Translations under genes and position numbers: made by a program
Shown here: positions 12,563 to 39,551 of the stretch, one piece after another
Layout: every line of letters begins with the position of its first letter
Numbering within the stretch: position 1 is the stretch's first letter
The notes under the pieces: generated by a model
Database searches by the model: none
What the model was told of the DNA's origin: nothing
Seen by the model: the letters and a program-made list of their open reading frames with translations, nothing else
NCBI GenBank assembly: GCA_016218705.1
Contig: JACRDC010000118.1
Location: 1 to 39,733 of the forward strand
Length of the DNA: 39,733 nt
Direction of reading: 5' to 3'
From: Desulfarculus sp.
GTDB taxonomy: Bacteria > Desulfobacterota > Desulfarculia > Desulfarculales > Desulfarculaceae

Positions 12563-13351
12563 TTATTTATCCCTATCCGATTGCACCAGGATTTTTCCTG
12601 TATGCTGCTGCATTGGAATGGGCTGGAGATGCTGGAAGCCATATTTAGCACACAAATAACTTAGGATTTGGTCAGAATCTTTTCTTGTTAAATCACAGTC
12701 TGCAATCATAACGTCATCGTCATCTTCCGCGAGCTGTTGGGGATCGCATAGTCCGCCAGCCATACCTACTACAAGCTTAGACTTACGGAAGTCATCCACT
12801 CTTGGTGAAAGTGAATTAATGCAAAGCTGGCAATTATTGCTATAGGTGAGAATTGCGCCATCTAGGTAGTCTCGCCAGGAATAAAATGCACTTTCATGAA
12901 AATAATAACAGGTAATTATATTGGAAGCATGCAAACTAAAAAGAGTCTCGCTTCCAAAAAGAGTCGAACGAAAGCGCTCAAAGTGCAAATAAGAGTCTTG
13001 ACCAGCGGAATGTAGCCAAATTACTCGAAAACTATTACCTACAGGATCATGTTCTAGCATTTGCTGAACACCACTCCTTATAATAGACCCCAGGGTATTT
13101 CTGGGACCGACAGGAATGGACTTACTTACAATGCCACCTTTTAATAAAATCTTGCGTTCTTGTGCGATAAGTTCGGGGTCGTCCCCCTTAATCTTCAATT
13201 CTATCGTATAGCTATCGTTATCACCAATGGCCTCAAAATCAGGGGTTGGAACTTCTTGCCTTGGTGGTATATCAATTACCATCAGCCCTAAGTTTTTCAG
13301 CAACTCCTTAACTATAGGCTTAAACGTTCGTTCATCCATATTACCTGCCAT
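12563..13351 (-). CDS. Orphan AT-rich protein with PD-(D/E)XK nuclease-like motif
   Basis: 262 residues from the ATG at 13351; a second ATG at 13339 has a slightly better AGG upstream, so either start is possible. No family is recognised outright. Near the N-terminus, VKELLKNLGLMVIDIP leads to PTPDF with Asp38, and 13 residues later IELKIK with Glu51 and Lys53. This Asp...Glu-x-Lys spacing is that of PD-(D/E)XK nucleases. The rest has no visible membrane segment, repeats or zinc ligands. Base composition and codon choice are clearly more AT-rich than in every other gene here, and palindromic elements flank both sides, which points to recent horizontal transfer. It may be a solo restriction-like or defence protein; this is an inference. 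Confidence 0.7.
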   Translation of the reverse strand: MAGNMDERTFKPIVKELLKNLGLMVIDIPPRQEVPTPDFEAIGDNDSYTIELKIKGDDPELIAQERKILLKGGIVSKSIPVGPRNTLGSIIRSGVQQMLEHDPVGNSFRVIWLHSAGQDSYLHFERFRSTLFGSETLFSLHASNIITCYYFHESAFYSWRDYLDGAILTYSNNCQLCINSLSPRVDDFRKSKLVVGMAGGLCDPQQLAEDDDDVMIADCDLTRKDSDQILSYLCAKYGFQHLQPIPMQQHTGKILVQSDRDK

Positions 13352-13871: not shown

Positions 13872-14765
13872 TCAGGCGGTTGGGGATAGGTCCAAGACCT
13901 TGAGCGCCGCCGGCAACACCTCGATGAACAGCGGCGCCTGGCCCACGGGCTCGCCGTCGGCCCACAGTTCCAAGAGGCCGTCGCTCTCCACCTTCAGGGT
14001 GCGCGTACTGAAGAAGCTCACCTCGGGCAGGCCGGCGTGACGCCCGGCTAGCAGGGTGGGCAAGAGACGCAGCACCCGGAAGAAGCTGAGCGGCTTGACC
14101 AGGCACACGTCCAGCAGGCCGTCGTCGGGCCGCGCCGGGGGCACGATGGGTATCTGGTTGCCGTAGGTGGGCGTGTTGGCGATGGCTGCCAGGAACAAGG
14201 CGCCTTGGTAGGAGCCGCTGTCCCAGGTCAGACGCACGCGCCGGGGCTCAAAGCCCATCAGCACCCGCACGACACCCCACAGATAGGCCGGCTGGCCCTG
14301 GAAAGGCAGCCGCGCCTGGTCCACGTAGCGGCTGACCAGGGCGTCGAAGCCCAGGGCGCCCACGGTGCAGTACAGGCGTCCATCGGCGCGGGCCAGGTCC
14401 ACGCGTCGCCAGCGGGGGGCGGCCAGGCTGCGGGCCAGGCCGGCGGGCGTGGGCACCGGCCCCAGGGCGCGGGCAAAGTCGTTGCAGCGCCCCGTGGGCA
14501 GAATGGCCAGGCCCACTTCGCCGCCGGCCAGGGCCTGGACAACCTCCTGCACGGTGCCGTCGCCACCGCAGACCAGCACCAGGCCCGCCCCCTCGGCCAC
14601 GGCCTGGGCGGCCAGCTTCTGGGCGTGGCCACGCCCCTGGGTGTGCATCACCCGCGCGGGCAGGCCCTGGCCACTCAGGGCGGCCAGCATTTCCTCGCCC
14701 AGGCGACGGCCCCGCCCACGGCCGCTGGCCGGGTTGACGATCAGGGTTATTAGCGGCGCATCCAT
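13872..14765 (-). CDS. Diacylglycerol-kinase-family lipid kinase (YegS/DgkB-like)
   Basis: 297 residues, typical length. The N-terminal nucleotide-binding domain shows IVNPASGRGRG (near residue 9) and the glycine-rich GGDGTVQEV (67-75), the DAGK catalytic signature. The next motif, usually P-x-GTGND, reads PTGRCNDFAR (90-99), so the GTG is altered but the Asn-Asp is kept. The C-terminal beta-sandwich has YGNQIPIVPPARPDDGLLDV, with the Asp-Gly pair typical of the family. It would phosphorylate a lipid alcohol such as diacylglycerol using ATP at the inner membrane. It lies six bases after the EndoQ-UvrD fusion gene and 20 before the cupin gene. Confidence 0.9.
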   Translation of the reverse strand: MDAPLITLIVNPASGRGRGRRLGEEMLAALSGQGLPARVMHTQGRGHAQKLAAQAVAEGAGLVLVCGGDGTVQEVVQALAGGEVGLAILPTGRCNDFARALGPVPTPAGLARSLAAPRWRRVDLARADGRLYCTVGALGFDALVSRYVDQARLPFQGQPAYLWGVVRVLMGFEPRRVRLTWDSGSYQGALFLAAIANTPTYGNQIPIVPPARPDDGLLDVCLVKPLSFFRVLRLLPTLLAGRHAGLPEVSFFSTRTLKVESDGLLELWADGEPVGQAPLFIEVLPAALKVLDLSPTA

Positions 14766-14771
14766 TGATTA

Positions 14772-17639
14772 TCAGAAAAGCCCCATCTGCCTAGGCTTGC
14801 GGGGGCGGATGGTCATATGTTCGGTTTGCAGCAGGGCGTACGGTATCTCACTCAGATAGGGCGTGAGGCCGGGCTGGCGCTCGCGGCCAAAGAGGCTGCG
14901 CCGGGTGGCGCGGCTTAGGTACAGGCGCTGGCGAGCGCGGGTCAGGGCCACGTAGAGCAGGCGGCGCTCCTCGTCCAGGGGGGACGCCGGGCGCTCGGGC
15001 GGCTGGTAGGGCAAGAGCCCCTCCTCCAAGCCCGTCACGAAGACCACCGGAAACTCCAGGCCCTTGGCCGCGTGCATGGATAGCAGGCTGACCCGCTGGG
15101 CCTTGAAGTCCAGGGGATCGGTCTCGGCCAGGGGTTCCTGGGCAGCCACCTGCACCGGCACCCCAGCCCGCTCAAGGGCCTCGGCGATGATCGGCGCCTG
15201 GGCGTGCAGGCGGTAGAGCACCGCCACCTCGCCGGCGGCGTAGCCCCCCCCTGTCTTGCCTTCGCCGGCCTCCACCTGGCGCGAGTCCAGGCCGCCCAAC
15301 AACTCCACCACCTTGCCGGCCACCCACTGGGCCTCGGCCTCGGGGCTGGGCAAATGAGCATGGAGCGGCAAGGGGCCTGCTCCGGCCTGGGCTTCCAGGT
15401 TTGGCCGCGTGGGATCGGGCTGGGCGCTGATGAGGGCCTGGGCCGCCGCCAGGATGGACGCGGTGCTGCGGTAGTTGCGGGTCAGGGCCAAGGCGCGCGC
15501 CCCGGCGAAATCCTGGCTAAAACGCGCGAACAGGCGGCTCTCCGCCCCCCGGAAGCCATAGATGGCCTGGTCAGGGTCGCCGATGGCCGCCACCTGGGTG
15601 GCCGGGCCGCACAGGGCCTTGATAAGCGCCACCTGGGCCGGGTTGACGTCCTGATACTCGTCCACCAGCAGGTGGTCCAGACGCTCCTGCCAGGCCCGGG
15701 CCAGGTCCGGCTGGGCCAGCAGGGCCAGGGCGGCCCGGCGCACCAGGTCGTCCAGGTCCAGGACGCCCTCGCGCTCCAGTGCCTCCTGGTAGGCCCGGAA
15801 CCAGGGACGCAACGCCGGCTCGGCCGGGTCCTCCATGCGTTGTTTGGCCAGGGTCAGGGCCGAGGCCAGGTAGCCGGCCTTGAGGCCCGCCTTCTTGGCC
15901 AACCGGCCCACCAGGGCCAGGCGGGCCTCCTCGTCCAGCACTTGCAGGGGGCGGTCCAGGACCTGGCCCAGCACCTGGCGGCCCAAAGAATGGAAGGTGC
16001 CCACACCCGCCGCCGCCTCCGGCGACGCGGCGCCCAGGCGCTCGGCCAACTCGGCGGCGGCCTTGCGGGTGAAGGTGACGAGTTGCAGACGCTCCGGCGC
16101 CAGGCCCTCGCCCAGCAGACTGGCGGCGCGGGCCACCAGCAGGCGGGTCTTGCCGGTGCCCGGCCCGGCCCGCAGGATGAGGTGCCCGCCGCGATAGTCC
16201 ACGCCCTGGCGCTGCTCGTCATTCAGTTCCCCCAGGCCAGGCATGGCGGCCTGGGGCCGGCTGGCCAGGAGGGACAAGTCCGGCGGGGGCGAGGCTGGGG
16301 CCGTGGAGCCCGAATTGGCCGCGCGGCGCGGCGGCGGCTCCGGCGCGGGCGCGGCCTGCCACAGGGCCTTCTGGCCAGTCAGCTCCCGGCGCTCAGCGGG
16401 GTCGAACAGCCGCACCACCCCGAACTCGCCGTCGTAGCCGCCCTCCAGCCAGACCCGGCCCGAGCGCATGCGGCCGATGGCCTCGGCCAAGAGCGGCCCG
16501 CCGACCCGGCGCAGTTCCTCCAGGGGTGCCTGGCGCAGGATGTACAGCTCCGGCCCCAGCTTGGCGCATAGCTCGCCCAAGGCCTGGCGCACGCCCTTGG
16601 TGTTGGCCCCGCGCTGCATCACCTCGCCCAGCACCTCGCCCAGAGGTACCAGGGACTCGAAGGGCTTTCGGTGCTGCGGACCCTGGCCGGCCGGGCGGTC
16701 GGCCAGATCCTCCACGCGGCTCAAGACGCCCACGGTGATGGCCCCGCCGCAGACCGGGCAGCGCCCGCCGTGACGCCGTGTTTGATCGGGCATCAGGCGC
16801 TGGCCGCACTTGCGGTGGCCGTCCAGGTGGTACTTGCCCTCGTCGGGGAAGAACTCCAGGGTGCCGGCGAAGCTTTTCCCCTGTCGGTCGGCCAGGGCCG
16901 CGGCCAGGTCTTGGTAGGTGGGCGCGCAGCCCAGCAGGTTGGCCTCGCGGGCCAGATTGGCCGGGCTGTGGGCGTCGGAGTTGGAGACCAGGGTGAAGCG
17001 GTCCAGGGCCGATAGGCGCCAGTTCATGGCCGGATCGCTGGAGAGCCCCGTCTCCAGGGCCTGGATGTGCCCGGTAAGGTCGGCGAAGCAGTCCTCTATG
17101 CGATCAAAGCCGCTCTTGCTGCCGAACAGGCTGAACCAGGGCGTCCAGATGTGGGCCGGGATGAAGATCACCCCCGGCTCCACGTCCAGGCACAGCTCCA
17201 GCAGGTCGCGGGCGTCCAGGCCCAGGATGGGGCGGCCGTCGCTCTTGATATTGCCCAGGCGGGCCAGGCGGGCGTTGAGTTTTTCCACGGCCTCGATGCC
17301 GGGCATGAGGACCAGGACGTGCACCTTGCGCGTGGCGCCGTGGCGCTTGTAGATGCAGGATATCTCGCCGGAGAGCAGGAAGCGCACCGGACGCCGGCAA
17401 CTGGGCAACACCTGGGGGGCCAGGGCGGCCTCCAGGCCGGGGCGCAGGGCAAAGGCCCCGTCGCCGGTGGCCACCAACTTTTCCTTGAGTTCCTCCATCC
17501 AACCCGGGTGGGTGAAGTCGCCCGTGCCCAGGAGGTCCACGCCCTTGTGCTGGGCCGCCAGCCACAAGTGCTCGGGGTCCAGGTCGCGGGCCGTGGCCCG
17601 GGAGAAGCGCGAGTGTATGTGCAGGTCGGCGACGATCAT
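14772..17639 (-). CDS. EndoQ (PHP endonuclease)-UvrD helicase fusion
   Basis: 955 residues. Residues 1-420 are a PHP-fold endonuclease of the EndoQ/TIGR00375 type: DLHIHSRFS (5-13), GTGDFTHPGW (38-47), GEIS (91-94), PAHIWTPWFS (161-170), SNSDAHS (219-225), then the zinc-binding region HRKCGQRL and CPVCGG (Cys278, 294, 297). EndoQ nicks DNA 5' of deaminated bases and abasic sites. A Pro/Ala linker (430-465) leads to an SF1 helicase: Q-motif LNDEQRQGV, Walker A AGPGTGKT (491-498), TFTRKAAAE, GTFHSLG, DEYQDVN (660-666), GDPDQAIYGFRGA, LTRNYRST, SMHAAKGLEFPVVF, and LYVALTRARQRL. The last five residues, QMGLF, resemble a beta-clamp-binding motif. It follows an aminotransferase gene by 73 bases. 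Role: probably deaminated-DNA repair with built-in strand unwinding. Confidence 0.93.
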   Translation of the reverse strand: MIVADLHIHSRFSRATARDLDPEHLWLAAQHKGVDLLGTGDFTHPGWMEELKEKLVATGDGAFALRPGLEAALAPQVLPSCRRPVRFLLSGEISCIYKRHGATRKVHVLVLMPGIEAVEKLNARLARLGNIKSDGRPILGLDARDLLELCLDVEPGVIFIPAHIWTPWFSLFGSKSGFDRIEDCFADLTGHIQALETGLSSDPAMNWRLSALDRFTLVSNSDAHSPANLAREANLLGCAPTYQDLAAALADRQGKSFAGTLEFFPDEGKYHLDGHRKCGQRLMPDQTRRHGGRCPVCGGAITVGVLSRVEDLADRPAGQGPQHRKPFESLVPLGEVLGEVMQRGANTKGVRQALGELCAKLGPELYILRQAPLEELRRVGGPLLAEAIGRMRSGRVWLEGGYDGEFGVVRLFDPAERRELTGQKALWQAAPAPEPPPRRAANSGSTAPASPPPDLSLLASRPQAAMPGLGELNDEQRQGVDYRGGHLILRAGPGTGKTRLLVARAASLLGEGLAPERLQLVTFTRKAAAELAERLGAASPEAAAGVGTFHSLGRQVLGQVLDRPLQVLDEEARLALVGRLAKKAGLKAGYLASALTLAKQRMEDPAEPALRPWFRAYQEALEREGVLDLDDLVRRAALALLAQPDLARAWQERLDHLLVDEYQDVNPAQVALIKALCGPATQVAAIGDPDQAIYGFRGAESRLFARFSQDFAGARALALTRNYRSTASILAAAQALISAQPDPTRPNLEAQAGAGPLPLHAHLPSPEAEAQWVAGKVVELLGGLDSRQVEAGEGKTGGGYAAGEVAVLYRLHAQAPIIAEALERAGVPVQVAAQEPLAETDPLDFKAQRVSLLSMHAAKGLEFPVVFVTGLEEGLLPYQPPERPASPLDEERRLLYVALTRARQRLYLSRATRRSLFGRERQPGLTPYLSEIPYALLQTEHMTIRPRKPRQMGLF

Positions 17640-17712: not shown

Positions 17713-19041
17713 TCAAGTGGTCACCTTGGCCACCACCTCCGCGAATATCTCCAGGCAGGTGTCTATCTCCTCGGCGCTGACCGTGAGCCCCGGGCAGAAG
17801 CGCACCGTATTCTCGCCGCAGCCCAGGAGCAACAGCCCCCGGTGGAAGGCATCGTGCACGATGCGGTGGCGCCAGTCATGGGCGCGCTCCTTGGTCTGGC
17901 GGTCCTTGACGATCTCGGCCCCCACCATCAGCCCCAGGCCGCGCACGTCGCCCAGGCACTCGTGCTCCCGCTGCAATAGCCGCAAACCCTCCATGAGCCG
18001 CTGGCCCATGGCCTGGGCATTGGCCATGAGACCTTCCTCCAAGAGCTCGATGGTGGCCAGGGCGGCCTGGCAGGAGACCGGGTTGCCGCCGAAGGTGGAG
18101 GCATGGGAGCCGGCCTCCCAGCTCATGATCTTGGCCCGGGCCAGCATGGCCCCCAGCGGCATGCCCGACGCCAGACCCTTGGCCAGGGCCATGATGTCGG
18201 GCTCCACGCCAAAGTGCTCCACGGCGAACATCCTGCCCGTGCGCCCCATGCCCGACTGCACCTCGTCAGCCACCAAGAGGATGCCGTACTTGTGGGCCAC
18301 GCGCGCCAGCTCGCGCAAAAACTCCGGCGGCGGCACCACGTAGCCGCCCTCGCCCTGGATGGGCTCCACGAAGATGGCCGCCACCTCCTCGGGGGGGATG
18401 GTGGTGCGGAACAACGTGTCCTCCAGCCAGCTCACGCACTCCTGGCAGCAGTTGGGATAGACCATGCCGTGGGGACAACGGTAGCAGTAGGCATAGGGTA
18501 TGTGGGTGATGCCCGGCACCACGGGGTGGTAGTGGCGCTTCTGGATGGCCTTGCTGGCGGTGAGCGACAGGGCGCCCATGGTGCGGCCGTGGAACGCCCC
18601 GAAGAAGGCGATGTTCAGTTCGCGGCGGGTGTGCCAGCGGGCCAGCTTGAAGGCCGCCTCCACGGCCTCGGCCCCGGAGTTGCCGAAGAAGACCTTGTGC
18701 GCCCCGCCCCCCGGGGCCAGGCTGGCCAGCTTGTGGGCCAGCATGATCTGGGGCTCGTAGTAGAAATCGGTGCCCGACATGTGCAGCAATTCGCCGGCCT
18801 GGTCGCGTATGGCCTGCACCACCCTGGGGTGGCAGTGGCCGGTGGCGCAGACGGCGATGCCGGCCGTGAAGTCCAGGAACTGGTTGCCGTCCACGTCCTG
18901 AACCCACAAGCCCCGGCCCCGTTTGGCCACCAGGGGATAACCCCGGGTATAGGAGGGCGAGACATAGGCCTGGTCCAGTTGCATCAGGCGCACGGCCTCC
19001 GGGCCGGGCAGGCTCGTGTTTATCTGGGGCAATCTCTTCAT
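17713..19041 (-). CDS. Class-III PLP aminotransferase (GABA/ornithine type)
   Basis: 442 residues. Fold-type I features: NSGAEAVEAAFKLAR (121-135), AFHGRTMG (149-156), EPIQGEGGYVVPP, ADEVQSGMGRTG (258-269, Asp259 to the PLP ring nitrogen) and the Schiff-base Lys288 in MALAKGLASG. A cysteine-rich insert, YCYRCPHGMVYPNCCQEC (185-202), is found in a subgroup of these enzymes that includes archaeal-type omega-aminotransferases and amino-acid racemases. Likely substrates are 4-aminobutyrate, ornithine or acetylornithine. With PutA and an ornithine-cyclodeaminase-like gene nearby, ornithine to glutamate semialdehyde is attractive, but this is an inference. It starts 38 bases after gcvPB in the same direction, so it probably belongs to the gcv transcript. 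Confidence 0.9.
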   Translation of the reverse strand: MKRLPQINTSLPGPEAVRLMQLDQAYVSPSYTRGYPLVAKRGRGLWVQDVDGNQFLDFTAGIAVCATGHCHPRVVQAIRDQAGELLHMSGTDFYYEPQIMLAHKLASLAPGGGAHKVFFGNSGAEAVEAAFKLARWHTRRELNIAFFGAFHGRTMGALSLTASKAIQKRHYHPVVPGITHIPYAYCYRCPHGMVYPNCCQECVSWLEDTLFRTTIPPEEVAAIFVEPIQGEGGYVVPPPEFLRELARVAHKYGILLVADEVQSGMGRTGRMFAVEHFGVEPDIMALAKGLASGMPLGAMLARAKIMSWEAGSHASTFGGNPVSCQAALATIELLEEGLMANAQAMGQRLMEGLRLLQREHECLGDVRGLGLMVGAEIVKDRQTKERAHDWRHRIVHDAFHRGLLLLGCGENTVRFCPGLTVSAEEIDTCLEIFAEVVAKVTT

Positions 19042-19078
19042 ATGCCTGTTTGCCTCGCTAGCTACATGCCGTTTGGAT

Positions 19079-20532
19079 TCAGCGTTGGGCCAGGTCGGGC
19101 TGGCGGGCGGCGCGCACCTCGTCCAGGCGGCCCACGGGCGTGCCGCGGGGCGCGGCGTGCAGCCAGGCCGGGTCCTCCTGGGCCTTCTTGGCTATGAAAG
19201 CCATGGCCTCCACAATCGCGTCCAGGTTCTCCTTGGACTCGGTCTCGGTAGGCTCGATCATGATGGCCTCCTTGACCACCAACGGGAAATACACCGTGGG
19301 CGGATGGAAGCCGAAGTCAATCAGCGCCTTGGCCACGTCCATGGCCGTGACGCCGTGCTGGGCCGCCTGGTCGGCGGCACTGAAGACCACTTCGTGCATG
19401 CACATCCGGTCCACGGCCACCCGCCACTGTGGCGCCAGGCGCGCCCGCAGATAGTTGGCGGCCAGCACCGCGTCTTCGGCCACCCGCTTCAGCCCCTCGC
19501 CGCCCAAAGCCAGGATGTAGGCATAGGCCTTGAGCACCACCCCGAAGTTGCCGTAGAAAGGCGCCACGTAGCCGATGGAGTGGGCGTGGTCATAGTCCAG
19601 GAACAGGGTGCCGTCCTCGCGGCGGGCCACCCGCGAGATGGGCAGGAAGGGCTCCAGCTTGGCCACCACGCCCACCGGCCCGGAGCCCGGCCCACCGCCG
19701 CCGTGGGGCGTGGCAAAGGTCTTGTGCAGGTTGAGGTGCACGATGTCAAAGCCCAGGTCGGCCGGCTTGGCGATGCCCAGGATGGCGTTCAAGTTGGCGC
19801 CGTCATAGTACATCAGCGCATCCACGGCGTGGGCGGCCTCGCTGATGCGCTTGATGTCCGGCTCGAACAGGCCGAGCGTGTTGGGGTTGGTCATCATCAC
19901 CCCGGCCACCTCGGGGCCGAGCATGGCCCGATAGGCCTCGAAGTCCATCACGCCGTCCCTGGAGGGCACGGTGCGCACGCTATAGCCCGCTATGGCCGCG
20001 CTGGCCGGGTTGGTGCCGTGGGCCGAGTCGGGCACCAGCACCAGGGATTTATGGTTGCCCCGGTGGCGGTGGTAGGCGGCCATCAGCATCAGCCCGGTCA
20101 ACTCGCCGTGGGCCCCGGCCAGGGGCTGCATGGTGTAGGCCCGCATGCCGGTGATGGCGCATAGAAGCTGCTCCATCTCGTGGAGCACCTCCAGGGCGCC
20201 CTGGGCCAACAGGCCGCCACGGCGCAGTTGGGGCAGCATGGGGTGCAGGCCGGCGAAGCCAGGCAGCCGGGCAATGTCCTCGGTGAACTTGGGGTTGTAC
20301 TTCATGGTGCAGGAACCCAGGGGGTAGGGTCCCACGTCCACGCCGAAGTTCTGCCGCGAGAGGTTGGTGAAGTGGCGCACCACGTCAATCTCGGCCACCT
20401 CGGGCAACTCGGCGGGCTTTTCCCGCAGCAGCTCCGGCGCCAGGCAGGCCTCCTGAAAGCAGGCGTCGGGCAACAGCGGCGGGGGGAAGGTCACGCCCCG
20501 GCGGCCGGGCCGGCTCATGTCGAAGATGGTCT

Positions 20533-20536
<4 letters not shown>
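19079..20536 (-). CDS. gcvPB: Glycine dehydrogenase (decarboxylating) subunit 2
   Basis: 485 residues from the ATG at 20536, preceded by GGAGG; the longer frame upstream is out-of-frame shadow of gcvPA. It is the C-terminal half of the split P-protein and carries the PLP lysine: Lys272 in HLNLHKTFATPHGGGGPG (quoted in part: NLHKTFATPHGGGGPG). Other signatures are LGSCTMKYNP (73-82), DSAHGTNPASA and TNPNTLG. With GcvPA it decarboxylates glycine and passes the aminomethyl group to lipoylated GcvH. Its ATG overlaps the gcvPA stop codon (ATGA), so translation is coupled, which gives equal amounts of the two subunits. Confidence 0.97.
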
Positions 20537-21852
<1,316 letters not shown>

Positions 21853-21853
21853 G

Positions 21854-22246
21854 TCAGCCTCTCTCTATGAACTTCGCGTAGGCGTCCGCGTCCATGAGTT
21901 CGCCCAGGCCCGAGGCGTCATAGTCCTTGAGCTTGACCAGCCAGCCCGCGCCGTAGCAGTCCTGGTTGATAAGCTCGGGGTGCTCGCCCAAAGCGGCGTT
22001 GGCCTCGGCCACCACCCCGGCCAGGGGCGAAAAGACGTCCGCCGCCACCTTCACCGACTCGATGACGCACAGCTCGGCCATGCGCTCCACGGCCCGCCCC
22101 GCCTCGGGCAGGTCCACATAGGTCACGTCACCCATCTGTTGCTGGGCAAAATCGGTGACCCCCACCACGGCCAGCCCGCCCTCGACCTTGATCCACTCGT
22201 GCTCCTCGGTGTATTTCAACTCCTCTGGCACCGCGTATTGACTCAT
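21854..22246 (-). CDS. gcvH: Glycine cleavage system H protein
   Basis: 130 residues from the ATG at 22246 (GGAGA upstream), the standard H-protein length. The lipoyl domain shows YTEEHEWIKVEGG at the start, VGDVTYVDLP-like MGDVTYVDLPEAG, and the lipoylation site Lys66 in ESVKVAADVFSPLAG. The end, YGAGWLVKLK, is also conserved. The lipoyl arm shuttles the aminomethyl group from GcvPA/B to GcvT and is reoxidised by a dihydrolipoamide dehydrogenase, whose gene is not in this window. It lies 20 bases after gcvT. Confidence 0.97.
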   Translation of the reverse strand: MSQYAVPEELKYTEEHEWIKVEGGLAVVGVTDFAQQQMGDVTYVDLPEAGRAVERMAELCVIESVKVAADVFSPLAGVVAEANAALGEHPELINQDCYGAGWLVKLKDYDASGLGELMDADAYAKFIERG

Positions 22247-22266
22247 GGGCTCTCCTTCCCAAGGCA

Positions 22267-23442
22267 TCACAGCAAGGGTTGCAGATAATTCCCCCCGGGC
22301 TTGACTAAACGATTCACCACCACGCCCGGCAGGGCGCGGCCGCGATAGACGATTTCCACTTTTTGACCAGCCACCACCTGGCGCTCCAGGCAGGCCAGGC
22401 CGATGGCCCGGCTGTAGTGCTCATCCCCGGGCGCGCCGCCCTTGAAGCGCCAGGCTGGCACCGTGGTGCCGCTGGTCAGCTCGCCCACCTGGCGCCCCTC
22501 CACCAACACCGGCGAGCCCTCGCGCATCATGCCCCGCTCTTGGGCTGCCACGCCCCGGATGAGGCAGGGCACCTCGGCCACCTGCCCGCCGGCCAGCTCC
22601 GCCGCTTGGCGCTCCAGGGCGGCGCGGCCCAGGAAGTCCCCGCGCTCCGGGGTCAGGGCAACGCCGTGCCTGGCCAGGGGCAGGGACAGGATGGGCCAGT
22701 CGGGCCGCAGCTCGTGGCCGTAGAGGGGTAGCCCCGCCTCCAGGCGCAGGGTGTCGCGGGCGCCCAGACCGGCGGGCATGAGCCCCAGGCCGGAGCCGGC
22801 CTCGAGAAGGTCCGTCCACAAGCGACCCACCTGGGAGGCCTCCACGAACAGCTCGTAGCTGTGAGGCTCGCCGGTGTAGCCCGTGCGGCTGACCAGCACC
22901 CGCCCGCCGGCCCAGTCCAACCAGGCGCAGTGATTGCGCGCCGCCGGCAGGCCCTCCGCCCCCAGCACCCGGCCCAGCACCGCGCTGCTCAGGGGGCCTT
23001 GCAGGGCCAGCATGGCCATTTGCGCGCTGATATCCTCCAGGCCGGCGCCACTTGGGTCCAGGCCGTGCAACCAGGCCCAATCCTGGCCGCGGTTGCCGGC
23101 GTTGACCACCAGCAGGTAGGCGCCCTCGGGCAGGCGGAAGAGATAAGCGTCGTCCAGGGGCCGGCCTTCAGGGTCTGAGAGAAACGTGTAGTGGGAGCGG
23201 CCAGGCCCCAGACGCGCGGCATCGTTGCTCAGGGTCCGCCGCAGAAAGGCCAAGGCCCCGGGACCGGCCAGCCGAAAACGGCCCATGTGGCTGGTGTCGA
23301 AAAGGGCGGCGGCCTTGCGGCAGGCCAGGTGCTCGGCCACGATGCCGGCCTGGTAGCTCACCGGCAGGCTCCAACCCGCGAACTCGATCAGCTTGCCGCC
23401 GTGTTGGCGGTGCCAGCCGATCAGGGGCGTCTCCAGGGTCAT
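22267..23442 (-). CDS. gcvT: Glycine cleavage system T protein (aminomethyltransferase)
   Basis: 391 residues from the ATG at 23442, which has GGAGG five bases upstream; an upstream in-frame extension to 23478 lacks this and was rejected. The start reads TPLIGWHRQHGGKLIEFAGW, as in GcvT. Later blocks are LFDTSHMGRF, SRTGYTGEPHSYELF, LGARDTLRLEAGLPLYGHEL with the key Asp, and the C-terminal barrel domain (VGELTSGTTVPAW, IGLACL). It transfers the methylene group from the aminomethyl-lipoyl H protein to tetrahydrofolate and releases ammonia. It is the first gene of the gcvT-H-PA-PB cluster and is divergent from putA. Confidence 0.96.
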   Translation of the reverse strand: MTLETPLIGWHRQHGGKLIEFAGWSLPVSYQAGIVAEHLACRKAAALFDTSHMGRFRLAGPGALAFLRRTLSNDAARLGPGRSHYTFLSDPEGRPLDDAYLFRLPEGAYLLVVNAGNRGQDWAWLHGLDPSGAGLEDISAQMAMLALQGPLSSAVLGRVLGAEGLPAARNHCAWLDWAGGRVLVSRTGYTGEPHSYELFVEASQVGRLWTDLLEAGSGLGLMPAGLGARDTLRLEAGLPLYGHELRPDWPILSLPLARHGVALTPERGDFLGRAALERQAAELAGGQVAEVPCLIRGVAAQERGMMREGSPVLVEGRQVGELTSGTTVPAWRFKGGAPGDEHYSRAIGLACLERQVVAGQKVEIVYRGRALPGVVVNRLVKPGGNYLQPLL

Positions 23443-23579
23443 GGCCACCTCCTGGTCATATTCTACAAAAATGGCCAAGGCCGTGGTGAATACACTTGCG
23501 CCTGCTTGCTACAATGTAGGCAGGCATGGTTGGTTGACCCACCACCACAGGTTCGATTGCAGGGAGAGGCCGCGCCATC
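23443..23579. promoter_or_regulatory. Divergent gcvT/putA control region
   Basis: A 137-base gap serves both directions. On the plus strand TGCTACAAT (23508-23516 region) is an extended -10 for putA. On the minus strand TAGAAT lies close before gcvT. GCCTGC and GGCAGGC around the extended -10 form an inverted repeat that could be an operator. It is too short and lacks the paired aptamers of a glycine riboswitch. Confidence 0.4.
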
Positions 23580-26500
23580 ATGAGCAGCCAGTGGGAAGAG
23601 CGCATCGTGCGGCGGGGCCGGGAGCTGATGGCCGGCATCCGCCAGCAGACGCCAACGGTCTTCGACAAGTCCTTCTGGACCGGCAAGGTGCTGGACTGGG
23701 CCATGCACCATGAGGATTTCAAGGTGCAGCTCCTGCGCTTCGTGGACGTGCTGCCCAGCCTGACGAGCGGCGAGTCCCTGCAGCGCCACCTGGAGGAGTA
23801 TTTCGGCCAGGAGGGCGGCGAGGTGCCGCCGGTGCTCAAGTGGGGGGCTGGCCAGGCAGGCCGCCTGGGGCAGGTGGGCGGGCGGGTGCTGGGCAAGGTC
23901 ATCCGCTCCAACCTGGAGGGCCTGGCCCGGCAGTTCGTGGTGGGGCACACCACGGCCGAGGCCCTGCGCCGCCTGGGCCGGCTGCGCCAGGAAGGCTTCG
24001 CCTTCACCGTGGACCTCTTGGGCGAGGCCACGGTGAGCGAGGACGAGGCCGACACCTACCAGCAGGGCTATCTGGAACTCAGCAAGGCCCTGGCCCGCGA
24101 GCAGGTCCGCTGGCCCGGCCTGGGCGGCGGCAAGCTGGACTGGGGCCACGCCCCCAAGGTCAACCTGTCGCTCAAGCCCAGCGCCCTCTACTCCCAGGCC
24201 AAGCCCGCCGCGCCCGAGGACTCGACGCAAGGCATCCTCAGGCGACTGGAGCCCATCTACCGCGAGGTGGTCTCACTGGGCGGCGGCCTGTGCCTGGACA
24301 TGGAGCAGCACCGCTACAAGGACATCATCCTGGAGGTCTACCGCCGCCTGCGCTCCCATCCCGAGTTCCGTAGCCATCCCCACCTGTGGGTGGTCATCCA
24401 GGCCTACCTCAAGGACAGCGAGCAGGACTTGGAGGCGCTATTGGCTTGGGCCAGGAAGGAGGACTTGCACCTGGGCATCCGCCTGGTCAAGGGCGCCTAC
24501 TGGGAGTACGAGAACACCGTGGCCCTGCAAAGCGGCTGGCCCTCGCCGGTGTGGGAGCACAAGGCCCAGAGCGACCTGAACTTCGAGCGCCTGGCCCGGC
24601 GCATCCTGGAGAACCACCAGACATGCAACCTGGCCTGCGCCTCCCACAACGTGCGCTCCCTGGCGGCGGTGTGGGAGATGGCCCAGGCCCTGGAGGTGCC
24701 GCCGGAGCGCTACGAGTTCCAACTGCTCTACGGCATGGCCGAGCCGGTGCGGCGGGCCTTGCTGGATCAGGGCGGCCGGGTGCGCCTCTACTGCCCCTAC
24801 GGCGAACTGCTGCCGGGCATGGCCTACCTGGTGCGGCGCATCCTGGAGAACACCTCCAACGAGTCCTTCCTGCGCCAAAGCTTCGTGGAAGGCGCCGAAC
24901 TGGAGGACCTGCTGGAAGACCCCCGCAGCGCCCATCAACGCCACCTGGACTGCTCGCCCATCACCCAGCCCCCGCCCGCGCCCGTCTTTGGCGGCCTGGG
25001 TCCCTTTGTCAACCAGCCCCTGATTGACTTCACCCAGCCGGGGCTGCTCGGGGATTATCAGGAGGCCATCCGCCGGGTGCGCGGCCGTCTGGGCGCCACC
25101 TACCCCCTGGTCATCGGCGGCCGCAAGATCACCACCGCCGACACCCAGGCCAGCCACAACCCCGCGGACCCCGGCGAGGTGGTGGGACTGGTCTGCCAGG
25201 CCGGGCCGGAGCAGGTGGACAAGGCCCTGGCCGCCGCCGCCCAGGCCCTGCCCGCCTGGCGCGGCACCCCGGCCAGCCAGCGCATCGCCTATCTGCAAAA
25301 GGCCGCCCAAATCGCCCGCCAGCGTCTGCTGGAGCTGGCGGCCTGGCAGGTGTTGGAGGTGGGCAAGCAACTGGACCAGGCCTACCACGACGTGGCCGAG
25401 GCCATAGACTTCCTGGAATACTACGCCCGCCAGATGCAGCGCCTGGCCACGCCCCAACGCTTGGGCCACGAACCTGGTGAACTCAACCTCTACCACTATC
25501 AGCCCCGGGGCCTGGCGGCGGTCATCGCCCCCTGGAACTTCCCCCTGGCCATTTCCTGCGGCATGGCCGCCGCGGCCCTGGTGGCCGGCAATTGCGTGGT
25601 CTACAAGCCCTCCAGCCTGGCGGCCGTGGTGGGCTTTGGCCTGCACGAGGTATTCGAGCAGGCCGGTCTGCCGCCGGGGGTCTTCAACTACTGCCCGGGC
25701 CGGGGCTCGGTCATGGGCGATTACCTGGTGGAGCACCCGCTGATAAGCCTAATCGCCTTCACCGGCAGTAGCGAGGTGGGGCTACGCATCCAGGAAAAGG
25801 CCGTGCGCCTGTCCGCCGGCCAGGCCCAGAACAAGCGGGTGATCGCCGAGCTGGGCGGCAAGAACGCCATCATCATTGACGACGACGCCGACCTGGACGA
25901 GGCGGTGCCGGCGGTGCTGGCCTCGGCCTTTGGCTATCAGGGTCAGAAGTGCTCGGCCTGCTCGCGGGTGATCGTGCTGGAGGCCGTGTACGGCCGCTTC
26001 ATCGAGCGCCTGCTGGCGGCGGCCCGCTCGCTCGACATCGGCCCGGCCGAGGACCCACGCAACTACCTGGGGCCGGTGGTGGACGCGGCGCAGCAAAAGA
26101 AGGTGCTGGAGTACATCACCCTGGCCGGCCAGGAGGGGCGCATTATCTTCCAGGGCGCGGTGCCGGAGCGGGGCTGCTACGCGCCGCCCACCATCGTGGA
26201 GGGCATCACCCCCCTGCACCGCCTGGCCCAGGAGGAGGTCTTCGGCCCGCTGCTGGCGGTGATGCAGGCCAAGGACTTTGACCAGGCCCTGGCCATGGCC
26301 AACTCCACCCGCCAGGCGCTGACCGGCGGGGTCTTCAGCCGCAGCCCCCGCCACCTGGAGCAGGCCCGGCGCCAGTTCCGCGTGGGCAACCTCTACCTCA
26401 ACCGGGGCATCACCGGCGCCCTGGTGGCGCGCCAGCCCTTCGGCGGCTTCGGCATCTCGGGCCTGGGCTTCAAGGCCGGCGGGCCGGACTACCTGCTGCA

Positions 26501-26585
26501 ATTCATGGACGCCCGTTGCGTGACCGAGAACACCATGCGCCGGGGCTTCGCGCCCGTGGGCCGCGACGACCAGTGGGTCTGCTGA
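23580..26585 (+). CDS. putA: Bifunctional proline dehydrogenase / glutamate-semialdehyde dehydrogenase
   Basis: 1001 residues. No N-terminal DNA-binding domain, so this PutA is purely enzymatic. The proline dehydrogenase barrel (about 135-445) shows DLLGEATVSE, NLSLKPSALY (195-204), RLVKGAYWEYE (301-311), CASHNVRSL and ENTSNESFLRQSF, which bind FAD and proline. The aldehyde dehydrogenase domain (about 490-990) shows APWNFPLAISCG (650-661), KPSS, FTGSSEVG, the Glu757 motif ELGGKNA and the nucleophile Cys791 in GQKCSACSRV. It oxidises proline to glutamate, with electrons going to the quinone pool and NAD. GGGAGAGG precedes the ATG. The next gene is an ornithine-cyclodeaminase-like protein that could supply the proline. 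Confidence 0.96.
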   Translation: MSSQWEERIVRRGRELMAGIRQQTPTVFDKSFWTGKVLDWAMHHEDFKVQLLRFVDVLPSLTSGESLQRHLEEYFGQEGGEVPPVLKWGAGQAGRLGQVGGRVLGKVIRSNLEGLARQFVVGHTTAEALRRLGRLRQEGFAFTVDLLGEATVSEDEADTYQQGYLELSKALAREQVRWPGLGGGKLDWGHAPKVNLSLKPSALYSQAKPAAPEDSTQGILRRLEPIYREVVSLGGGLCLDMEQHRYKDIILEVYRRLRSHPEFRSHPHLWVVIQAYLKDSEQDLEALLAWARKEDLHLGIRLVKGAYWEYENTVALQSGWPSPVWEHKAQSDLNFERLARRILENHQTCNLACASHNVRSLAAVWEMAQALEVPPERYEFQLLYGMAEPVRRALLDQGGRVRLYCPYGELLPGMAYLVRRILENTSNESFLRQSFVEGAELEDLLEDPRSAHQRHLDCSPITQPPPAPVFGGLGPFVNQPLIDFTQPGLLGDYQEAIRRVRGRLGATYPLVIGGRKITTADTQASHNPADPGEVVGLVCQAGPEQVDKALAAAAQALPAWRGTPASQRIAYLQKAAQIARQRLLELAAWQVLEVGKQLDQAYHDVAEAIDFLEYYARQMQRLATPQRLGHEPGELNLYHYQPRGLAAVIAPWNFPLAISCGMAAAALVAGNCVVYKPSSLAAVVGFGLHEVFEQAGLPPGVFNYCPGRGSVMGDYLVEHPLISLIAFTGSSEVGLRIQEKAVRLSAGQAQNKRVIAELGGKNAIIIDDDADLDEAVPAVLASAFGYQGQKCSACSRVIVLEAVYGRFIERLLAAARSLDIGPAEDPRNYLGPVVDAAQQKKVLEYITLAGQEGRIIFQGAVPERGCYAPPTIVEGITPLHRLAQEEVFGPLLAVMQAKDFDQALAMANSTRQALTGGVFSRSPRHLEQARRQFRVGNLYLNRGITGALVARQPFGGFGISGLGFKAGGPDYLLQFMDARCVTENTMRRGFAPVGRDDQWVC

Positions 26586-38521: not shown

Positions 38522-39502
38522 TTAATCATCTTCCGTAAAGTAGAAGCGCGACACCACCGGCATGTGGTCGGAAACCTCGTTGCTGATTTGCTTGAGCAGG
38601 TCCTTGATCTTCCGCCCCTGAGGGTTGCCGGCCAGCATCTTGCTCAAGGGCTTCCAGTGGATGGCCGTGGGCGGGGCTTGCACGTTGTCCAGGGCCGCCA
38701 CCGAGATGGCCCCCAAGTCCAGGCGCGAGCCTATCTCGTTCTTGTTGCGGTACATCAGGTGGCTGATGTTGCTGCTGTCGTTTATCTTGGCGAAGCCCAC
38801 CCTGCCCTGCTTCTCCAGTTGATGGAGGGCCTGCCAGCAGGGCGCGCCGGGCGGCTCGTTCCAGTCGCCCAGTATGATGACGTCTGCGTCCTTGATCTCG
38901 GCCTCCTCGCCCAGCCACTTGGCCAGGCGCTGGCCAGCGGCCCGGCGCTGGTCCTCGCCGCCGCCCCTCTGTGATTTGAGGTGCACCCCCACCAACTGGA
39001 AGTCAAAGGGCTCGGATTGGCGGTTGTTGGTCAGGCTGGTGAAATGGGCCCACAGGGGCAAGCGGGGAAAAACCTCCTTGCCGCCGCCCGTGACCACCTG
39101 GCCCTTGCCGAACAGCTCCACAATGTCGTCCTTGGCCCGCACCCAGTCCAGGTCGTACATGATGGCGATGCGCTGGTTGCCGCCGGTGGTGCCGTAGGCC
39201 ACTTGGTAGTAACCGGCACCTTGCTCGCCCAGGCTCCGGGCCACCACATCCAACGAGCCCTCCAGTATCTCCTCCAAAACCAGCACGTCTGCGTTAAGTT
39301 CGCCCAAGACCTCCACGATATTGGCCACCCGGCGGGGGTCGCGGTCGTGAAAATAGCGGATGTTCCAACAGACCACGTCCAGGAACCTGTCGGTCCCCCG
39401 CAGTTCCTCTGGGACCAATCCATTATTGATGAACAAATCTGACAACTTGTCGTTGTCAGGCTTTTGATAGACGGATTTACCCTTCTTGACCGGCTTGGCC
39501 AT
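38522..39502 (-). CDS. Endonuclease/exonuclease/phosphatase-fold protein
   Basis: 326 residues from the ATG at 39502, which has GGGGG six bases upstream; an ATG at 39508 adds two residues but has no correctly spaced site. The fold signatures are VVCWNIRYFHD (Asn metal ligand), LVLEEI (Glu), VGVHLKSQRGGG, ILGDWNEPPG (Asp-x-Asn) and the terminal SDHMPVVSRF (Asp-His pair). These are the metal-binding and catalytic residues of the DNase I/exonuclease III/inositol phosphatase superfamily. There is no signal peptide; the N-terminus is basic. It could cleave nucleic acid or a phosphoester. It has its own promoter and is not in an operon. Confidence 0.88.
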   Translation of the reverse strand: MAKPVKKGKSVYQKPDNDKLSDLFINNGLVPEELRGTDRFLDVVCWNIRYFHDRDPRRVANIVEVLGELNADVLVLEEILEGSLDVVARSLGEQGAGYYQVAYGTTGGNQRIAIMYDLDWVRAKDDIVELFGKGQVVTGGGKEVFPRLPLWAHFTSLTNNRQSEPFDFQLVGVHLKSQRGGGEDQRRAAGQRLAKWLGEEAEIKDADVIILGDWNEPPGAPCWQALHQLEKQGRVGFAKINDSSNISHLMYRNKNEIGSRLDLGAISVAALDNVQAPPTAIHWKPLSKMLAGNPQGRKIKDLLKQISNEVSDHMPVVSRFYFTEDD

Positions 39503-39551
39503 TTTCATCCCCCGATTAAAATGTAATGGTAACCGCAGGGCAGGTAATTAA

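Follow-up and report, generated by a model that had tools for sequence, protein, structure and literature searches.

A bacterial endonuclease Q homologue joined to a UvrD-type helicase core, with predicted sliding-clamp motifs

The stretch of 39,733 nucleotides (nt) analysed here, positions 1–39,733 of the Desulfarculus sp. contig JACRDC010000118.1 and referred to as the window, encodes a protein in which an N-terminal endonuclease Q (EndoQ) module is joined to a C-terminal UvrD-type helicase core. The fusion is real and conserved, with known parts in a new arrangement, and it is not peculiar to its source organism: it is probably ancient, more than ten phyla carry it, and split as well as stand-alone forms exist beside it. 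We consider it probable that the protein is a clamp-tethered incision-and-unwinding enzyme for DNA with deaminated or missing bases. An earlier note, made from the sequence alone, had proposed a one-protein nick-and-unwind repair machine; this idea is partly supported and remains the best-supported reading, but it needs correcting for clamp motifs, for the loss of a helicase subdomain and for the distribution of the fusion. The literature searched, which was limited to open-licence papers and hence offers no proof, held no description of such a fusion.

A complete EndoQ module in front of a helicase

The frame runs from ATG to TGA with no internal stop and encodes 955 amino acids (aa), as the earlier note had stated (Table 1). 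The halves that encode EndoQ and helicase have a G+C content of 0.70 and 0.72, respectively, and a third-position G+C content of 0.92 and 0.89; because they are so alike, the join is not visible as a recent graft. An AlphaFold2 model built on an alignment of 57 fusions (mean predicted local distance difference test score (pLDDT) 89.7; predicted template modelling score 0.55) contains two confident bodies, the relative placement of which is not predicted.

Residues 3–413 align over the full length of PfuEndoQ (5zb8; E = 1.3e-46) with an overall identity of 32%. The modelled EndoQ body superposes on 5zb8_B with a Z score of 49.1 and a root-mean-square deviation (rmsd) of 2.4 Å over 388/398 residues, and on the deoxyuridine (dU)–DNA complex 7k30 over its full length (Z = 48.0); the PHP fold, the EndoQ zinc domain and the C-terminal helical domain are all present. 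The eight PHP ligands H7, H9, D41, E92, H107, H163, D222 and H224, which pair with Pfu H8, H10, D42, E76, H84, H139, D193 and H195, respectively, are invariant in 57/57 fusions. D222 corresponds to the catalytic aspartate D193, which is replaced by asparagine in the protein chain of crystal entries with bound DNA. The zinc region (H275-C278-C294-C297, with CPVCGG) differs from the four cysteines of its Pfu counterpart (CCCC to HCCC): C278, C294 and C297 are invariant and H275 is conserved in at least 90% of the 57 fusions, and His275, in place of the first cysteine, is also a possible zinc ligand. Beyond the PHP ligands, the module keeps the EndoQ-type stretches N-x3-D/E-G-R-P, T-P-W, G-L-S-x-D and G-K-Y-H, together with R231 and R308; those shared with Pfu lie at residues 135–137 (GRP), 166–168 (TPW), 198–200 (GLS) and 268–271 (GKYH) of the window protein. 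The earlier description of a complete PHP/EndoQ module with a CPVCGG zinc region is thus borne out by alignment, superposition and ligands.

The same note had made a match to EndoQ and TIGR00375 the test of this assignment, and here the outcome is divided. The alignment with EndoQ is found, and TIGR00375, an NCBIfam hypothetical equivalog model, matches at E = 7e-51, but the score of 173.7 bits lies below the curated cut-off of 326.6, which is passed in 0/297 genomes sampled from the window's phylum, stand-alone EndoQs included. Because the cut-off is missed, we file the module as an EndoQ homologue and not as a TIGR00375 member; nicking 5′ of dU, deoxyinosine and abasic sites is predicted from its homology.

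The last 485 residues align with UvrD, PcrA and Rep. Residues 471–831 plus 843–911 match UvrD/PcrA (PF00580, 181.9 bits; PF13361, 114.9 bits), and TIGR01073 matches with 288 bits, with the PcrA, UvrD and Rep equivalog cut-offs not reached. The helicase body superposes on Rep (1uaa_A; Z = 42.1, rmsd 1.9 Å, 443/636 residues), and the UvrD-family motif set and the 1A/2A/1B core are present. Motifs GPGTGKT, DEYQD, GDPDQ, R724, HAAKGLEF and R901 are intact and mostly invariant among the 57 fusions, confirming the complete superfamily 1 (SF1) motif set that had been noted previously. By homology, the module should have ATP-dependent 3′→5′ unwinding activity.

Loss of the 2B subdomain

The assignment to EndoQ plus a UvrD-type helicase holds at the level of domains, but the helicase is not a full UvrD: it has lost the 2B subdomain that most fusions keep. 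Residues 826–852, at the 2B site, span 27 residues in the window protein, compared with a median of 127 and with 84–190 in 48 other fusions; 2B is missing in 9/57. The model of a 2B-bearing relative (locus L022) has a helical insert at this site, at about residues 866–1013, and aligns with Deinococcus radiodurans UvrD over 610/642 residues, compared with 452/638 for the window protein. On the tree, four changes in 2B presence are needed, only one of which is forced by strong branches. The otherwise inactive Rep monomer gains helicase activity when 2B is deleted, and the current view of this subdomain is that it is autoinhibitory (PMC13238157). Because 2B is absent here and Rep is activated by its deletion, we predict that the window helicase should unwind as a monomer, controlled by recruitment (to a nick or clamp) rather than by autoinhibition.

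Predicted sliding-clamp motifs at the module end and at the C-terminus

Two candidate sliding-clamp motifs, one clear (QMGLF) and one probable (GQKALW), lie at the C-terminus and at the junction between EndoQ module and linker. QLxLF near the C-terminus is a bacterial β-clamp motif (PMC4549789, the source of the consensus), and a pentapeptide of this type is found within the last 12 residues of 48/57 non-redundant fusions (mean of 0.24/57 in shuffled tails). It also occurs in 21/36 stand-alone EndoQs and 6/8 split proteins, in 0/1049 other frames of at least 250 aa from the same loci (many of which are shadow frames) and in none of the canonical UvrDs examined. We regard QMGLF as a β-clamp-binding motif conserved beyond chance that would bind DnaN. 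The internal pattern Q-x-x-L-[FWYLIM] is present at the junction in 29/57 fusions (shuffles: mean 1.1, maximum 6), placed where stand-alone EndoQs end in their own clamp motif, and 25/57 fusions have both motifs. In archaeal EndoQ, a C-terminal PIP box binds PCNA and boosts cleavage, and bacterial EndoQ homologues have already been noted to contain β-clamp consensus sequences in their C-terminal region (PMC4858679). A clamp motif on bacterial EndoQ was therefore previously predicted; new here are its presence in the fusion and the second motif at the module end.

The gene for the clamp itself, dnaN, lies within 6 kb of the fusion gene at two Gastranaerophilales loci and in a block of Desulfobacterales that also contains gyrB and RdgC. 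Conserved-neighbour clusters were mostly shadow frames; filtering left no others than the dnaN/gyrB/RdgC block and the dnaN cluster of Gastranaerophilales. At the Gastranaerophilales loci L011 (4696–6678) and L059, the fusion is close to dnaN and to an endonuclease-IV-like TIM-barrel gene that scores below the nfo cut-off.

Distribution and history of the pairing

EndoQ is commonly described as archaeal and rare in bacteria, and the earlier note gave it as best known from archaea and a few bacteria, as a stand-alone enzyme. In our survey, 194/297 genomes sampled from the window's phylum carry EndoQ. A frame is listed for 150 of these; about 51 of the frames are fused and the other 99 stand-alone. 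Split pairs occur as a further architecture. A scan of 84,980 species genomes returned at least 590 relatives of the query, in which the match may be to either half, and the best 80 were taken as loci. These 80 come from Thermodesulfobacteriota, Myxococcota, Chloroflexota, Planctomycetota, Actinomycetota, Gastranaerophilales, Elusimicrobiota, Omnitrophota, Binatota, KSB1, Gemmatimonadota, Bacteroidota and Spirochaetota, include a complete chromosome, that of Desulfonema magnum, as well as Micromonospora and Salinispora isolates, and all but one (L007, split) match both halves within what is, or nearly is, a single frame. The fusion is therefore no artefact: it is spread over more than ten phyla and is present on a complete chromosome. 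All relatives read in the window's own family are fused; in Actinomycetota, the fusion is rare, as 5/198 genomes have a match (one marginal), three of them with a frame of fused length.

Split pairs keep the two genes together, with a 433-aa EndoQ and a 513-aa helicase separated by 75 nt at L007, an 8-nt overlap at L130 and abutting genes at L134. In trees that were built quickly, with Shimodaira–Hasegawa-like approximate likelihood ratio support only and with Pfu as a very long branch, most stand-alone EndoQs of the phylum fall into one clade (33 plus one split; support 97). Two splits are nested among fusions: L007 pairs with one from KSB1 (99) and L134 with those of Desulfobacula type (97), so both look like fissions that retained their neighbour. 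On the helicase side, fused and split proteins and the related stand-alone L176 form a group (93), from which the main clade of canonical UvrDs of the same lineage (100) is separate. These trees are consistent with the EndoQ–helicase pairing being one old association.

The stand-alone EndoQs at L139 (2177–3496), L137 and L136 sit inside fused clades and have neither helicase nor clamp motif; they are apparent losses of the helicase half and possibly decaying genes, and L139 still adjoins dnaN and an RdgC-like gene. L176 (5518–7542) is a 675-aa helicase of the EndoQ-associated branch that ends in the clamp-like RQKTLW, with no EndoQ in its 11-kb stretch. A phage or other mobile origin was rejected, as the EndoQ domain was not found in the plasmid and phage collections and viral contigs gave only generic helicases.

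Gene context and other repair genes

The window fusion is the only EndoQ gene of its source genome, which also encodes an ordinary UvrD (L113, 737 aa) and a RecB-like protein. The lipid-kinase gene downstream is probably co-transcribed with the fusion gene and has no apparent tie to its function. Upstream on the same strand (17713–23478), the aminotransferase gene is followed by the glycine-cleavage genes gcvPB, gcvPA and gcvT, and beyond these lies a proline dehydrogenase/PutA gene on the forward strand (23580–26585). Two further reverse-strand genes of the window encode a 262-aa protein (12563–13351) that has no Pfam or PADLOC match and a start (PTPDFEA...ELKIKG) resembling a nuclease-like core, and an endonuclease/exonuclease/phosphatase-fold protein (38522–39508; PF03372) that is not obviously ExoIII.

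Table 1 Features of the fusion gene and its immediate neighbours in the window
Feature	Residues	Position	Strand	Basis or remark
EndoQ–UvrD fusion gene		14772..17639	(-)	955 codons plus stop; homologues aligned
EndoQ module (PHP domain, zinc region, C-terminal helical domain)	1–421	16377..17639	(-)	
Zinc region (H-x2-C ... CPVC)	275–297	16749..16817	(-)	Conservation among fusions
Internal clamp-like motif GQKALW	422–427	16359..16376	(-)	EndoQ/linker junction
Disordered linker	423–468	16236..16373	(-)	pLDDT <50
UvrD/Rep-type SF1A helicase core without 2B subdomain	469–945	14805..16235	(-)	Profiles and superposition
Walker A GPGTGKT	492–498	16146..16166	(-)	Conservation among fusions
Walker B / motif II DEYQD	660–664	15648..15662	(-)	Conservation among fusions
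Short low-confidence loop at 2B site	832–848	15096..15146	(-)	Other fusions and UvrD have 2B subdomain here
C-terminal β-clamp motif QMGLF (predicted)	951–955	14775..14789	(-)	Conservation versus shuffles
YegS/diacylglycerol-kinase-like lipid kinase		13872..14765	(-)	6 nt downstream of fusion gene
Class III aminotransferase		17713..19041	(-)	Upstream neighbour; no apparent tie to fusion's function

Gene content gives no sign that the fusion replaces either of two other enzymes for deaminated bases. A gene of the uracil-DNA glycosylase (UDG) superfamily is present in the source genome and in 17/17 tested fusion genomes from other groups, and UDG co-occurs in 180/194 EndoQ genomes of the phylum, so the fusion as a UDG replacement was rejected. 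Endonuclease V (EndoV) was not found above the cut-off in the source genome; across the phylum it is present in about 19–20 of 51–52 fusion genomes, no more often than in genomes without EndoQ, and an EndoV replacement is not indicated either, as there is no significant association (P = 0.18). With no inverse association with either enzyme, gene content does not tell whether the repair of uracil or hypoxanthine requires the fusion. In one lineage, family f41, 10/10 sampled genomes have EndoQ (fused in G213, which is L129) and no UDG-superfamily gene.

Discussion

We propose that the fusion acts in four steps. QMGLF, perhaps aided by GQKALW, would dock the protein on the β sliding clamp, in parallel with archaeal EndoQ docked on PCNA by its PIP box. 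The EndoQ module would then flip the lesion (uracil, hypoxanthine or an abasic nucleotide) into its pocket and cut the phosphodiester bond 5′ of the lesion, as in characterised homologues, leaving a 3′-OH and a 5′-phosphate on the lesion strand. From its flexible linker of about 45 residues, the helicase would load at the nick on the intact strand and, given the polarity of its SF1A/UvrD homologues, travel 3′→5′ along it, so that the downstream piece with the lesion at its 5′ end would be displaced. A polymerase on the same clamp could extend the 3′-OH, and ligase together with a flap or 5′ nuclease would complete the repair. This scheme fits the EndoQ pathway as drawn, which combines 3′-OH extension by a polymerase with lesion removal by a flap nuclease (PMC4357722); the published versions rely on strand displacement plus cleavage of the flap or on a helicase for the removal (PMC4357722, PMC8438529). 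A bacterial EndoQ, that of Bacillus pumilus, is active (PMC6202378).

The intact EndoQ fold and ligands, the helicase core and the recurrence of the pairing, whether in a single chain or in genes that abut or overlap, argue for a joint incision-and-unwinding role, as do the terminal clamp motif, the dnaN proximity in two unrelated lineages and the absence of EndoQ from plasmids and phages. Several observations pull the other way. The TIGR00375 cut-off is missed; the clamp motifs are short, half of the fusions carry a degenerate form of the internal one, and four same-class relatives (L126, L128, L183 and L184) have lost the glutamine of the terminal one; the Desulfobacterales dnaN proximity is a single syntenic block and counts once; the fusion's neighbours in the window are metabolic genes, none of them for repair; the source genome has UDG, and EndoQ in the phylum is not inversely associated with UDG or EndoV. 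For the fusion itself, incision, polarity, clamp binding and the order of events are all things that we only infer.

The order of events could be reversed, with the helicase tracking along DNA before any cut, perhaps with the replication or transcription machinery, and exposing single strands in which EndoQ cuts lesions. Deamination is faster in single strands (PMC6202378), PfuEndoQ cuts uracil and hypoxanthine there (PMC11354406) and a helicase without 2B may be permanently active; however, the nick already provides a loading site, archaeal EndoQ with PCNA acts on duplexes without the help of a helicase (PMC4858679), and on inspection of the sequences the fusion lacks the RNA-polymerase-binding type of C-terminus that canonical UvrDs here appear to have. 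We judge this order fairly unlikely. A dual incision, in which EndoQ cuts 5′ and another nuclease 3′ of the lesion and the helicase lifts out the short piece, like UvrD in nucleotide excision repair, has been suggested in archaea, where EndoV would be the second nuclease and a helicase would take part (PMC4357722, Figure 10), but the lack of EndoV above the cut-off in the source genome and of any EndoV enrichment among the phylum's fusion genomes make it quite unlikely here.

A drift of the EndoQ module away from base recognition, towards some other PHP nuclease activity such as cutting DNA structures made by the helicase, is improbable: the low identity to PfuEndoQ, the missed TIGR00375 cut-off and the altered zinc ligand would allow it, whereas the EndoQ-type stretches kept outside the PHP ligands and the full-length superposition on 7k30 speak against it. 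To an anti-phage nuclease–helicase like Gabija (GajA plus the UvrD-like GajB) we give hardly any credence. PADLOC GajB models do match the helicase, with up to 221 bits, but the ordinary UvrD of the same genome scores higher (252 bits), so the match is unspecific, and the window has no GajA partner and no surrounding defence genes; with EndoQ also absent from plasmids and phages, we rejected this reading.

Set beside known enzymes, the fusion resembles each in part. Characterised EndoQs (PfuEndoQ PF1551, TkoEndoQ and B. pumilus EndoQ; COG1379/TIGR00375) share its N-terminal fold and eight metal ligands, possibly a zinc region with four ligands, and a predicted clamp motif placed at the EndoQ C-terminus or shortly after it. 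They are, however, stand-alone proteins of about 400–425 aa, whereas the window module is joined to a helicase, is divergent from Pfu, has HCCC in place of CCCC in the zinc region and scores below the TIGR00375 cut-off. UvrD, PcrA and Rep have the same full motif set, and the 1A, 1B and 2A domains superpose on Rep, but the fusion lacks 2B and the Tudor-like C-terminal extension, ends in a putative β-clamp motif, carries a nuclease in front and belongs to its own branch. RecBCD, AddAB, AdnAB and Dna2 likewise combine a UvrD-like motor and a nuclease as one machine, and RecBCD was recently reported to contact the β clamp (PMC13254535); their RecB-type nucleases act on DNA ends or flaps, unlike the predicted lesion-specific PHP endonuclease of the fusion. 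FacAGT-EndoV and other fused repair enzymes also couple a deaminated-base endonuclease to a second repair activity (PMC4357722), with different domains and no motor.

The incision-and-unwinding model can be taken a step further, to a two-handed machine in which GQKALW and QMGLF fill both clefts of one β-clamp dimer, with EndoQ and a constitutively active 2B-less helicase flanking the nick. We offer this tentatively and think it rather doubtful; if true, it would be a third bacterial route for deaminated bases, beside glycosylase-first base excision and EndoV.

What follows the EndoQ nick has been left open since the discovery of the enzyme, with strand displacement by a polymerase and a separate helicase both drawn. 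A large bacterial family with the predicted nicking enzyme and a helicase in one chain, or in overlapping genes, offers a concrete and testable answer to this question, and the clamp motifs indicate the cellular place in which to look for the fusion. Family f41 is a natural setting for asking whether the fusion carries uracil repair, and the 2B-less members beside their 2B-bearing relatives form a natural series for the debate on whether 2B is merely an inhibitory element.

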